Both the position numbers and the translations under genes were made by a program. This document shows positions 7,207-11,143 of a stretch of 55,546 bases of DNA, one piece after another. Below the pieces are notes generated by a model, which saw only the letters and a list, made by a program, of their open reading frames with translations, was not told the DNA's origin and ran no database searches. The DNA is from Nitrososphaerota archaeon (lineage in GTDB: Archaea; Thermoproteota; Nitrososphaeria; Nitrososphaerales; Nitrosopumilaceae): assembly GCA_028867275.1 (NCBI GenBank), contig JAGWGU010000004.1, positions 1-55,546 of the forward strand, written 5' to 3'. Positions within the stretch are counted from its first letter, which is position 1; each line of letters opens with the position of its first letter.

Positions 7207-8310
7207 ATGGACATTATTGAGATAGTACAAGCTAATCTTTTGACTCCTATTGTTCTGTTTTTTGTATTGGGAGTGGTTGCTGCCCATATAAAGTCAGATC
7301 TTCGAATACCTGATCAGCTTTCATCCTTTCTGCCAATTTACCTGCTTGCTGCAATAGGTCTGCATGGGGGAATAGAAATGAGAAAGGGTGGTCTTGAACA
7401 GATTGCCAATCCGATGGCAATAGCTGTGGTTCTGGCACTTGTCATGACTTTGAACCATTATCAAATTTTAAGAAGACTTGGCAAGTTCAACATATTTGAT
7501 TCGTACGCGCTTGCATCTACGTACGGTTCTGTCGGTGCTGTGACATTTTCAGTAGGATTGTCATTTCTTAGAGATCAAAACATAACATCCGAAGGTTACA
7601 TCACCGCAATACTTGCAGTACTGGAACCTATGAGCCTTGTATTTTCAATATTTCTTGTCAATATGACAGTTGAAAAGGAATTGAAAAAGAGAAAAGAATC
7701 ATTTACAAAAATCAAGGAACAGGGAACCAAATCAGAGATTTCTCACAACACCAATGATGGAACAAATATTGAAGTAGATACAAAAAGCAATACTGGAAAC
7801 CTAAAAGAAATTCTACGTGAGACCATAACTGGAAAAGCTATTGTCATCCTTCTAGGTTGCATTGTAATTGGATATATCATAAGTGATCATGGATTTGCAT
7901 CCATAAAACCAGTCTTTGAGGATCTGTTTTTTGGTGCACTTGTAATATTCATCCTTGAAATGGGAATACTTGCAGGACAGAGATTAAATGACATCAAAAA
8001 AGTAGGACCCTTTTTAATTGCGTTTGCAATTTTGATTCCTACATTAAATGGTACAATAGGAGTGATCATTGCAAATTACCTTGGCCTTAGTATTGGTGGA
8101 GCAGTAATGTTTGGAGTGCTTTTTGCAAGTGCGTCTTTTATTGCGGCTCCGGCAGTACTTAGGACTGGCATACCGCGAGCAAACCCCAGTTTGTATATCA
8201 CATCTGCATTAGGAATTACATTTCCATATATCATAATAGCATTATTGCCTATGCTCTTGATCATTTCTACTACTTTTCATAACTTGGGTTCGATAAGTTT
8301 ATTCGGTTAG
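7207..8310 (+). CDS. sbtA: SbtA-family sodium-dependent bicarbonate transporter
   Basis: SbtA (PF05982) imports HCO3- with Na+ at the cytoplasmic membrane; it is best known from cyanobacteria. The 367-residue protein has about ten hydrophobic segments in two halves split by a hydrophilic loop (about residues 155-200, Lys/Glu/Asn-rich). Family-like motifs include PIYLLAAIGLHGG, TYGSVGAVTF and LASASFIAAPAVLR-type text. An SbtB-like PII protein follows after 5 nt, which strongly supports the assignment. In this organism it could feed the bicarbonate-fixing 3-hydroxypropionate/4-hydroxybutyrate cycle (inference from lineage, not shown here). Confidence 0.9.
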   Translation: MDIIEIVQANLLTPIVLFFVLGVVAAHIKSDLRIPDQLSSFLPIYLLAAIGLHGGIEMRKGGLEQIANPMAIAVVLALVMTLNHYQILRRLGKFNIFDSYALASTYGSVGAVTFSVGLSFLRDQNITSEGYITAILAVLEPMSLVFSIFLVNMTVEKELKKRKESFTKIKEQGTKSEISHNTNDGTNIEVDTKSNTGNLKEILRETITGKAIVILLGCIVIGYIISDHGFASIKPVFEDLFFGALVIFILEMGILAGQRLNDIKKVGPFLIAFAILIPTLNGTIGVIIANYLGLSIGGAVMFGVLFASASFIAAPAVLRTGIPRANPSLYITSALGITFPYIIIALLPMLLIISTTFHNLGSISLFG

Positions 8311-8315
8311 GTAAA

Positions 8316-8633
8316 GTGATAACCAAAATGAAGCTATACAATATCAAATTATTAACAATTACCTGCGAGATACTTGCACAGAGCAAAGTAAAAGAGATAT
8401 TGAAAAAACACAGGATAACTGGATACACATCTTATGAGGTTGGCGGAATGGGTGATGAGGGACTACGAGGACAGGGACTACCGGAAGAAAAAAATGTGAA
8501 AATAGAGGTGGTACTAACTGAACAGAGTGCTGAAAAGATCATCGAAGAAATATTGAGGACATTGATGCCTGATTATGCTATCATTCTATACACTAGTGAT
8601 GTTCAAGTTGCTAGGATGGAAAAATTCGTCTGA
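8316..8633 (+). CDS. sbtB: SbtB-like PII-family regulator
   Basis: SbtB proteins are trimeric PII-like sensors of adenine nucleotides (AMP/cAMP/ATP) that bind and control SbtA. The 105-residue product has the ferredoxin-like fold pattern, with a Gly-rich T-loop region (YEVGGMGDEGLRGQGLP) and the C-terminal strand AIILYTSDVQVAR. It starts 5 nt after sbtA, so the two are co-transcribed. GTG at 8316 gives MITKMKLY; ATG at 8328 is an alternative start. Confidence 0.85.
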   Translation: MITKMKLYNIKLLTITCEILAQSKVKEILKKHRITGYTSYEVGGMGDEGLRGQGLPEEKNVKIEVVLTEQSAEKIIEEILRTLMPDYAIILYTSDVQVARMEKFV

Positions 8634-8839: not shown

Positions 8840-9220
8840 CTATCTAGTTTTAGACCATTTCTTCATCCACTGTAAAAGATCTATCATTGATTCTACAAGT
8901 TCCTGTCCTTTACTGGTTAGTTTGTATTCTACACGTGGAGGGATTTCATTATAAGACAGCCTGTCCAAGACTCCACTTTTTTCTAGTTCTTTTAATCGGA
9001 TTGACAAAGTCCTACTGCTTATTCCTTTCATAGCTTGCTTGAATTGTTTGTATCTGACTGGTTTAGTAGTACAGCATAATGGAATTAGGATTTCAAGAGT
9101 ACCTCTTTTAGTAATTATCTTTCTGAGTTTGGATGTATCTGTCATCAAGGAGGATGCATCATACCCTTCAAAACCGCAACTGTCTTTGACCATTGGAAGT
9201 GTTTTTCTTTTAGTTTCCAT
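8840..9220 (-). CDS. HxlR-family winged-helix regulator (candidate arsenic sensor)
   Basis: A 126-residue winged-helix protein with clear HxlR signatures: RYKQFKQAMKGISSRTLSIRLKELEKSGVL and PPRVEYKLTSKGQ. Cys15 and the adjacent pair Cys49-Cys50 (PLCCTTKP, at the start of the DNA-binding domain) could bind As(III) or another thiophilic ligand, which would make it a non-homologous stand-in for ArsR. It is divergent from arsM across 64 nt that contain a strong inverted repeat. The ligand role is inference; HxlR proteins elsewhere sense aldehydes or redox. Confidence 0.85.
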   Translation of the reverse strand: METKRKTLPMVKDSCGFEGYDASSLMTDTSKLRKIITKRGTLEILIPLCCTTKPVRYKQFKQAMKGISSRTLSIRLKELEKSGVLDRLSYNEIPPRVEYKLTSKGQELVESMIDLLQWMKKWSKTR

Positions 9221-9261
9221 TTTTACACTAACTGTAGTTGTTTATCCTTGATAACTTAAAT

Positions 9262-9278
9262 GGTTTACTTTGTAAACC
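9262..9278. promoter_or_regulatory. Operator-like inverted repeat GGTTTAC-TTT-GTAAACC at the ars promoter
   Basis: A perfect 7-3-7 inverted repeat ends 6 nt before the arsM ATG (9285). With a TATA-like CTTAAATGG about 25 nt upstream of that ATG, the repeat covers the expected transcription start, the classic place for a repressor. The divergent HxlR-type regulator is the obvious candidate binder. Confidence 0.65.
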
Positions 9279-9284
9279 TATGAC

Positions 9285-10043
9285 ATGAATGATATCATCA
9301 AAGAAAAGGTAAAGGAAAGGTATGGCAAGATTGCATTAACTGGAAATTCAGACTGTTGTTGTATGCCTGGAGAATGCAGTACAAATGATTCCCCTGTCGA
9401 CGCCACCAAAATAATTGGATATGATAAAGAAGAATTAAAATCAATTCCAAATGCCGCAATCTTGGGTGTTGGGTGTGGTGCACCAATAAAATTTGCCAAC
9501 CTAATGGATGGAGAGACAGTTGTGGATCTTGGGTCAGGTGCTGGAATAGACGTATTTCTGTCTGCAAACAAGGTCTCAAAATCAGGTAAAGTGATTGGCA
9601 TTGACATGACAGATGAGATGCTAGACAAGGCAAGGAGAAATGCAAAAGAAGGAAATTACGCTAACGTAGAATTTCGAAAAGGAGACATTGAAAACAACAT
9701 TCCTGTTGATGACAATACTGTTGACGCAGTTATCAGTAACTGTGTGATTAATCTTACCACTGATAAGACAAATGCGTTTAGGGAAGTTCATAGAATATTG
9801 AAGAAGGGCGGCAGGATGGTAATCTCCGACCTTGTGACTGATAAAGAGATTGATCAAGATCAGGTCAATGCAGAGCAATGGTGTAGTTGTATTGATGGTG
9901 CACTGACAAAGGAGAATTATATTCAAAGTATCAAAAAAGCTGGCTTTGAGAATGTGGATATTCTGGAAGAAAGAACATACATGGAAGGAGAGAAGGTAAA
10001 CGGTAGAAAAATATCAAGTCTAGTCATCAAGGCAATAAAGTGA
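9285..10043 (+). CDS. arsM: Arsenite S-adenosylmethionine methyltransferase ArsM
   Basis: Methylates As(III) using SAM. The SAM-binding motif DLGSGAG is at residues 81-87. Cys64 (GCGAP), Cys153 (SNCVINL) and Cys202 (SCIDGAL) match the arsenite-binding cysteines of characterised ArsM proteins, and an N-terminal CCC cluster (24-26) plus Cys31 adds more thiols. The 252-residue length is on the short side. It heads arsM-arsC-aquaporin, with 7 nt before arsC, and is probably leaderless. Confidence 0.93.
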   Translation: MNDIIKEKVKERYGKIALTGNSDCCCMPGECSTNDSPVDATKIIGYDKEELKSIPNAAILGVGCGAPIKFANLMDGETVVDLGSGAGIDVFLSANKVSKSGKVIGIDMTDEMLDKARRNAKEGNYANVEFRKGDIENNIPVDDNTVDAVISNCVINLTTDKTNAFREVHRILKKGGRMVISDLVTDKEIDQDQVNAEQWCSCIDGALTKENYIQSIKKAGFENVDILEERTYMEGEKVNGRKISSLVIKAIK

Positions 10044-10050
10044 GTATGTC

Positions 10051-10479
10051 GTGAAGTTCTTTGGAAAACACAAGGAAGGAAAAAAAATTCTCTTTGTATG
10101 TGTAGAAAACGCTGGAAGAAGTCAGATGGCAGAAGGGTTCTTTAGAAAGTATGCCCCTGAAGCATGGATTCCAGTCAGTGCAGGATCAAGACCAACACCA
10201 GAGATCAATCCAGTTGCAGTAGAAGCAATGAAAGAAGTTGGAATCGACATTAGCAAACAGAAACCGAAAGAATTGTCTGAGGAATTGGTTCAGTCTTCAT
10301 TCCTAAAGGTGAGTATGGGATGTATTGATAAAACAGAATGCCCTGCAATATTTCTTGGAAATCATCAAGACTGGGGTATTGAGGATCCAAAGGGAAAACC
10401 AATCGAGAAGGTACGAGAGATCAGAAACGAAATAGAAAAAAAGGTAAAAGAACTTGTCACAACTCTTGAATCTAACTAG
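10051..10479 (+). CDS. arsC: Thioredoxin-type arsenate reductase (LMW-PTP fold)
   Basis: Reduces arsenate to arsenite. The P-loop C-x5-R is Cys17 to Arg23 (CVENAGRS), and the second redox pair is Cys91/Cys97 (GCIDKTECP), the three-cysteine layout of the thioredoxin-coupled ArsC of the staphylococcal pI258 type. The Asp-Pro general-acid motif is in GIEDPKGKP. The 142-residue length is normal. GTG start; the ATG at 10046 is out of frame. Its product arsenite would be the substrate of ArsM or of efflux through the following channel. Confidence 0.93.
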   Translation: MKFFGKHKEGKKILFVCVENAGRSQMAEGFFRKYAPEAWIPVSAGSRPTPEINPVAVEAMKEVGIDISKQKPKELSEELVQSSFLKVSMGCIDKTECPAIFLGNHQDWGIEDPKGKPIEKVREIRNEIEKKVKELVTTLESN

Positions 10480-11143
10480 TAAACTAACTCCTAATCAAAG
10501 GATATTTTTTGCTGAAATCCTTGGTACGTTTGTTGTAGTAGTTTGTGCTACAGGATCTGTGGTATTGAATGCAAAGTCCAATGGAACCATAGGGTCATGG
10601 TTTGAGGCCTTTGCTCCTTTTGTGGGGGTCTGTTTGATGGTTTATGCGTTTGGCAAGGTTTCACGTGCTCATTTCAATCCCGCAGTTACTGTGTCATATT
10701 TTATCACAAGACACATTACAAAAACACAACTACCGATCTATTTTGCGGCAGAATCTATTGGAGCATTTTCAGGAATAATTTTTGTCAAGAACTTTATTGG
10801 AACAGAAGCCCATCTTGGGGTAAATGTCCCCAACTACTCCTTTCCACTGTGGACAATTTTTGGAATGGAGGTCTTGGCAACAGCACTCTTGATGGCAGTG
10901 ATTATGTGTGTTGTTCATACAAACGGACTGAGGGGTTTTAGTGGAATTGTAATAGGTGGAATAATAGGACTTGATATTTTCTTTTTGGCGTTTATTTCCG
11001 GGGCATCCATGAATCCAATTCGTTCCCTTGCACCTGCTGTTTTTTCAGGAATTTTTGATAACCTATGGCTGTATTGGACTGCAACTTTTCTAGGCTCATC
11101 AATTATTGGATTTATGTATCGAAGAAAATTTGTGGCAAAATGA
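10454..11143 (+). CDS. Aquaporin/aquaglyceroporin in ars operon (AqpS-like)
   Basis: A major intrinsic protein of 229 residues with six hydrophobic segments. The first NPA is at residues 75-77 (HFNPAVT); the second is NPI (187-189, in GASMNPIRSLAPA). Position after arsC suggests passive As(OH)3 exit, as described for AqpS in Sinorhizobium, where arsC makes arsenite and the channel lets it leave. The TTG start lies inside arsC (26-nt overlap), so the two are translationally coupled. No ArsB or Acr3 pump is present nearby. Confidence 0.85.
   Translation: MSQLLNLTSKLTPNQRIFFAEILGTFVVVVCATGSVVLNAKSNGTIGSWFEAFAPFVGVCLMVYAFGKVSRAHFNPAVTVSYFITRHITKTQLPIYFAAESIGAFSGIIFVKNFIGTEAHLGVNVPNYSFPLWTIFGMEVLATALLMAVIMCVVHTNGLRGFSGIVIGGIIGLDIFFLAFISGASMNPIRSLAPAVFSGIFDNLWLYWTATFLGSSIIGFMYRRKFVAK

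Follow-up and report, generated by a model that had tools for sequence, protein, structure and literature searches.

A conserved arsM-arsC-aqp operon of ammonia-oxidising archaea with a probable HxlR-family arsenic regulator

An arsenic gene cluster in a Nitrososphaerota archaeon raises two questions: which protein senses arsenic where the regulator beside the cluster is of the HxlR family, and how arsenite leaves the cell where no known pump is encoded. The cluster lies in a stretch of 55,546 nucleotides (contig JAGWGU010000004.1), called the window here. An earlier note on this DNA had described an arsM-arsC-aquaporin operon divergent from an HxlR-type regulator, and Pfam and NCBIfam searches recovered all four genes:

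8840..9220, minus strand: hxlR, HxlR-family regulator of 126 amino acids with Cys15, Cys49 and Cys50 (PF01638)
9285..10043, plus strand: arsM, arsenite S-adenosylmethionine methyltransferase of 252 amino acids (NCBIfam PRK11873)
10051..10479, plus strand: arsC, LMWP/thioredoxin-type arsenate reductase of 142 amino acids (PF01451)
10454..11143, plus strand: aqp, MIP-family channel of 229 amino acids with a TTG start (PF00230)

The start of aqp overlaps the end of arsC by 26 bp. We consider this to be probably, though with real room for doubt, an arsenic-detoxification operon in which ArsC reduces, ArsM methylates, the channel leaks and an HxlR-family repressor responds to As(III).

The divergent layout is common to dozens of ammonia-oxidising archaea of two families, with the genes in the same order. 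Of 400 sampled genomes of the class, 111 had an arsM match (E<=1e-40), and hxlR adjoined arsM in 48 of the 61 loci examined, a count on which a chance presence of HxlR beside arsM was rejected. About 37 of the 61 loci, from two families of the order, keep the full arrangement <hxlR >arsM >arsC >aqp. Judged by gene order, the set is a standard operon of ammonia-oxidising archaea more than a one-off island. Within a 398-genome sample of the phylum, ars-type HxlR proteins (E<=1e-35) occurred in 27 genomes, all from the same two families, and a scan of genome contigs with the HxlR alignment gave at least two ars-type loci among the matches listed, the others being ordinary HxlR proteins. Because HxlR, the operator and the genes are co-inherited in these two families, the orthologue and operator counts given here represent non-independent events. 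The set also varies: some genomes carry arsM without hxlR or operator (the L062 and L066 group), some ars clusters lack a linked aqp, and hxlR, operator, arsC and aqp are kept without arsM at six loci (L121, L122, L123, L126, L282 and L285). Several genomes of the same genus have a second arsC-like gene between hxlR and arsM (L053, L054, L057, L058, L011). Elsewhere a lone arsM, approximately 71-76% identical, occurs without hxlR, operator or arsC (L062, L066, L067, L070-L073, L076), in most cases with a 257-aa gene upstream.

The intergenic region between hxlR and arsM contains three elements that would make up a promoter and its operator:

9247..9254, plus strand: CTTGA(C/T)AA element directly 5' of the TATA-like box, a near-invariant CTTGACAA block in 42 aligned promoters
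9255..9261, unstranded: near-symmetric TATA-like box CTTAAAT, with CTT(A/T)AAT invariant in 42 promoters
9262..9278, unstranded: palindromic operator GGTTTAC-TTT-GTAAACC (GGTTTACTTTGTAAACC), a perfect inverted repeat

The palindrome is the only match in the window with up to 2 mismatches, where 0.19 would be expected, and a single perfect copy exists in the whole 1.7 Mb genome. A chance origin was rejected on the 0.19 matches expected in the window and the 94 sites found across the 400 genomes of the class. The repeat had been described as overlapping the arsM transcription start; it is indeed perfect, but it only abuts the expected start, lying between CTTAAAT (9255-9261) and a position near 9280-9285. 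Since this expected start all but coincides with the first base of arsM (9285), the arsM transcript probably has little or no leader. The CTTGA(C/T)AA element is a possible BRE, and the near-symmetry of the TATA-like box may allow it to serve both directions. Gap-free alignment of the 42 promoters gives approximately the consensus CTTGACAACTTWAATRGTTTMYNNNGTAAASY, and the block of TATA-like box and operator keeps a constant spacing of about 35 bp to the start of hxlR. The alignments of relatives also show good conservation of TTTACACTAACTG (9221-9240), located between the start of hxlR and the operator.

Looking for the operator in other genomes had been proposed as a check, and it proved both conserved and nearly exclusive to the hxlR/arsM/arsC/aqp set. 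In the form RGTTTMY-N3-GTAAASY (CTTNAATRGTTTMYNNNNTAAAS), the 94 sites fall in 72 of the 400 genomes; lengthening the spacer by one base, as a spacing control, left 1 match, and reversing the pattern left 6. An arsM start is no more than 700 bp away at 67 sites, and at a further 18 the neighbour is hxlR, arsC, aqp or an arsM fragment, for a total of 85 of 94. At one locus (L280, genome G189), a separate copy of the operator stands before aqp and lies opposite that of arsM-arsC.

The protein encoded by hxlR belongs clearly to its family (PF01638, 76.8 bits against a cut-off of 20.8, E 1.2e-21), and the Pfam search gave no match to PF01022 (HTH_5), the ArsR/SmtB domain. Foldseek matched its winged-helix fold to the HxlR-family structures HxlR, YodB, HypR and QsrR (E 1.8e-7 to 5e-5). 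Orthologues beside ars genes are 61-91% identical. The earlier note had made conservation of the cysteines next to arsM a point on which its proposal could fail, and Cys15, Cys49 and Cys50 are all invariant in 46 orthologues. Their specificity differs. We compared 30 HxlR loci from 12 related genomes, of which 22 are paralogues: an N-terminal Cys aligned with Cys15 is kept in 22 of 22, the Cys49-Cys50 pair is present in 0 of 22, and an N-terminal insert of roughly 12 residues is missing from most. An N-terminal Cys is a general feature of HxlR proteins and serves redox sensing in relatives. Therefore only Cys49-Cys50 is specific to the ars type. In the AlphaFold monomer (mean pLDDT 82), this pair sits at the end of helix 41-48, and Cys15 lies in a low-confidence N-terminal stretch (pLDDT 51-59) before helix 22-36.

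A protein of this kind could instead be a redox or electrophile sensor that responds to thiol oxidation, quinones or other thiophilic metals, with the ars genes induced as part of a thiol-stress response. The nearest folds and sequences, which include YodB, HypR and QsrR, favour such a role, as do the N-terminal Cys common to all HxlR paralogues and a weak NCBIfam link to the redox regulators RrpA/RrpB, which is below cut-off. However, ars-type genes or the regulator lie next to 85 of the 94 operator sites, the remaining sites showed no recognisable redox gene, the paralogues lack the Cys49-Cys50 pair, and in two relatives ArsR-family proteins occupy the place of HxlR. We regard the redox role as unlikely. 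The best reading of these sequences is that the HxlR-family protein would be a dedicated repressor, with As(III) bound at its cysteines relieving repression. In the open-licence literature, whose coverage is incomplete, we found no link between HxlR and arsenic or arsenic sensing; a Halobacterium genome study does not connect the two either.

The enzymes that such a repressor would control match their expected families to different degrees. ArsM exceeds its curated cut-off (PRK11873, 286.4 bits against 263), has a Cys-rich N-terminus, and has the three cysteines that had been expected of it: Cys64, Cys153 and Cys202 are invariant in 35 sequences and aligned with solved ArsM structures. ArsC scores below the NCBIfam cut-offs (90.6 bits against 215, 83 against 158 and 80 against 174). 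Its best solved relatives are arsenate reductases, and its assignment as a three-Cys thioredoxin-type enzyme is borne out by Cys17 (in a CX5R P-loop, C17-R23), Cys91 and Cys97, invariant in 40 sequences. The position of arsM as the first gene of the operon could be taken to mean that the module chiefly makes or handles methylated arsenicals, with methylarsenite as a competitive toxin and detoxification secondary, and methylarsenite has been discussed as antibiotic-like in sediments (PMC8938466). Against this stand the six loci noted above, where hxlR, operator, arsC and aqp persist without arsM, and the failure to find the methylarsenical exporter ArsP in this genome; we consider such a primary role very improbable.

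With detoxification as the preferred function, the route by which arsenite leaves becomes central. No Acr3 or ArsB pump had been seen nearby, and this holds genome-wide: no ACR3, ArsB or ArsP turned up in the genome, which is 96% complete, and unlinked copies of any of the three were rejected on these searches. Among 42 genomes with arsM, ACR3 was not found in 41, and a MIP gene is present in all 39 high-quality genomes. The linked channel matches PF00230 (E 5e-36), with NPA as the first and NPI as the second of its NPA-type motifs. Among solved structures its best relative is plant NIP2-1, a channel for silicon and arsenite. At the positions that we take, from general knowledge, to form the selectivity filter, the alignment gives Pro-Ile-Ala-Arg in most members, with Ile replacing the His of the AqpZ type. 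The channel falls far below the cut-off of the NCBIfam aquaglyceroporin model, and a second MIP gene elsewhere in this genome scores better.

Next to hxlR lies a pair of genes that the earlier note missed and that could be involved in ars function:

7207..8310, plus strand: SbtA-family transporter, a possible associate only (PF05982)
8316..8633, plus strand: PII-like (SbtB-like) protein, a possible associate only (PF00543)

This pair (7207-8633) is either a bicarbonate system drawn to the ars neighbourhood or a missed arsenic transporter. An SbtA-PII pair stands beside ars clusters in 14 genomes. It may be found upstream of hxlR, after aqp, on the same strand as hxlR, or next to an aqp that has the operator (the last in G189, L280). 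Such recurrence in several arrangements is one ground for supposing that the aquaporin is not the exit route and that an unlinked or unrecognised transporter, for example the SbtA-like protein, exports arsenite. Two others are that a passive channel is unable to export against a gradient, and that the SbtA family shares a Pfam clan with ACR3. Yet the operator precedes SbtA in none of the loci seen, many ars clusters have no SbtA, the pair is well explained by bicarbonate uptake in carbon-fixing archaea, and aqp at L280 has an operator copy of its own. Export by another transporter thus seems rather improbable to us, and we retain the channel as the likelier exit.

Natural exchanges among relatives bear on both the regulator and the channel. 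In G257, arsM-acr3-arsC is accompanied by a divergent ArsR, and neither an operator match nor a MIP gene was found in this genome (87% complete). In G048, HxlR accompanies an arsM-arsC unit, and at a separate locus an ArsR-family gene takes the place of HxlR in an otherwise syntenic SbtA-PII-arsC-aqp cluster. ArsR occupies the HxlR slot only in these two genomes, which are relatives. Of the comparative arguments that HxlR would stand in for ArsR, and the channel for the pump, these exchanges are the strongest.

At operator sites with no arsM behind them, the first open reading frame is often tiny and Cys-rich (28-50 residues, in several relatives). Three of these lie between operator and arsC:

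L126:3402-3506: Cys-rich ORF MAKDQKEKQPDTSFAGKHSDCCPDGACKCCCCCC
L282:2439-2525: Cys-rich ORF MEEKQPEIKCCSKDDSWPDGTCKCCCCC
L285:2380-2469: Cys-rich ORF MEEKQSEAKCCSSKDDCCPDGTCKCCCCC

All three have 28-34 residues, end in runs of Cys (CKCCCCC) and belong to operons without arsM. Directly downstream of the operator at L130, L131, L132, L135 and L284 are ORFs of 42-50 residues that resemble the N-terminus of ArsM, contain CCDDSCC and finish in CC. Two family f3 genomes (L128 and L129, at about 4000) have, after the operator, a CC-rich ORF of 30-31 residues and then an ABC-2 type permease gene; an ABC ATPase is encoded on the opposite strand. Cys-rich ORFs follow the operator 10 times at 73 sites, compared to 0.1 in shuffles, and no Pfam or NCBIfam family matches them. 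Two close copies of the same length differ by 6 non-synonymous and 2 synonymous codons, and hence there is no sign of purifying selection. The predicted microproteins, MEEKQSEAKCCSSKDDCCPDGTCKCCCCC for example, would resemble a tiny metallothionein. Tentatively, and with somewhat more doubt than belief, we suggest that this HxlR clade may have become an As(III) sensor convergently, through Cys15 and Cys49-Cys50, and that its regulon may add arsenite-trapping Cys-rich microproteins of 28-50 residues.

Taken as a detoxification operon, the locus would work as follows. Arsenate would enter via phosphate uptake and be reduced by ArsC. Part of the arsenite would be methylated by ArsM, and part would exit down its gradient through the MIP channel, standing in the usual place of ACR3 or ArsB. 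From the promoter layout we infer that an HxlR dimer would bind the palindrome that separates the TATA box of arsM from the transcription start, where it would block initiation at arsM and so repress arsM-arsC-aqp. HxlR would probably repress itself too, since in the hxlR direction the repeat borders the box on its upstream side. As(III) on Cys15, Cys49 and Cys50 would then release HxlR from the operator.

The operon is real and conserved, with an unusual and apparently dedicated regulator, and the comparisons point to a known arsenic pathway with a new sensor family. Reviews treat arsenic operons as ArsR-controlled, and annotation would miss a different sensor in an abundant archaeal group. 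If the reading is correct, it would show a further way of arranging cysteines to sense As(III), here on an HxlR fold, and would provide a case in which regulator and exporter are exchanged within a homologous operon. The operator motif would recognise archaeal arsenic genes genome-wide, unannotated Cys-rich microproteins included, and the operon would explain how ammonia-oxidising archaea handle arsenate without a known pump.

Known systems share parts of this design. The HxlR/DUF24 redox regulators YodB, HypR and QsrR have the same fold (TM-score about 0.65, normalised by query) and the N-terminal cysteine, whereas the clade-specific Cys49-Cys50, the N-terminal insert and the arsenic gene neighbourhood set the ars-type HxlR apart. 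Corynebacterium glutamicum ArsR binds through an S3 site formed by a Cys pair and a distant Cys, a similar logic to the one lone and two adjacent cysteines of HxlR; unlike that ArsR, the HxlR protein is outside PF01022, and its S3 site would be convergent. Pump-less AqpS-ArsC pathways are known in Sinorhizobium and Salinispora, and Sinorhizobium meliloti AqpS has been reported to confer resistance to internally generated arsenite (PMC6205960, PMC4435449). In the Sinorhizobium meliloti arsR-aqpS-arsC-arsH operon, ArsC and a MIP channel replace ArsB/ACR3, as here, but the archaeal operon has HxlR and not ArsR, contains ArsM, has no ArsH among its four genes, and encodes a channel closest, among solved structures, to plant NIP2-1. 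In the AqpS-ArsC fusion of Salinispora tropica, channel and reductase are functionally coupled (PMC6205960). The 26-bp overlap of archaeal arsC and aqp recalls this fusion, whereas the archaeal operon makes the two as separate proteins, under another regulator and with ArsM added.
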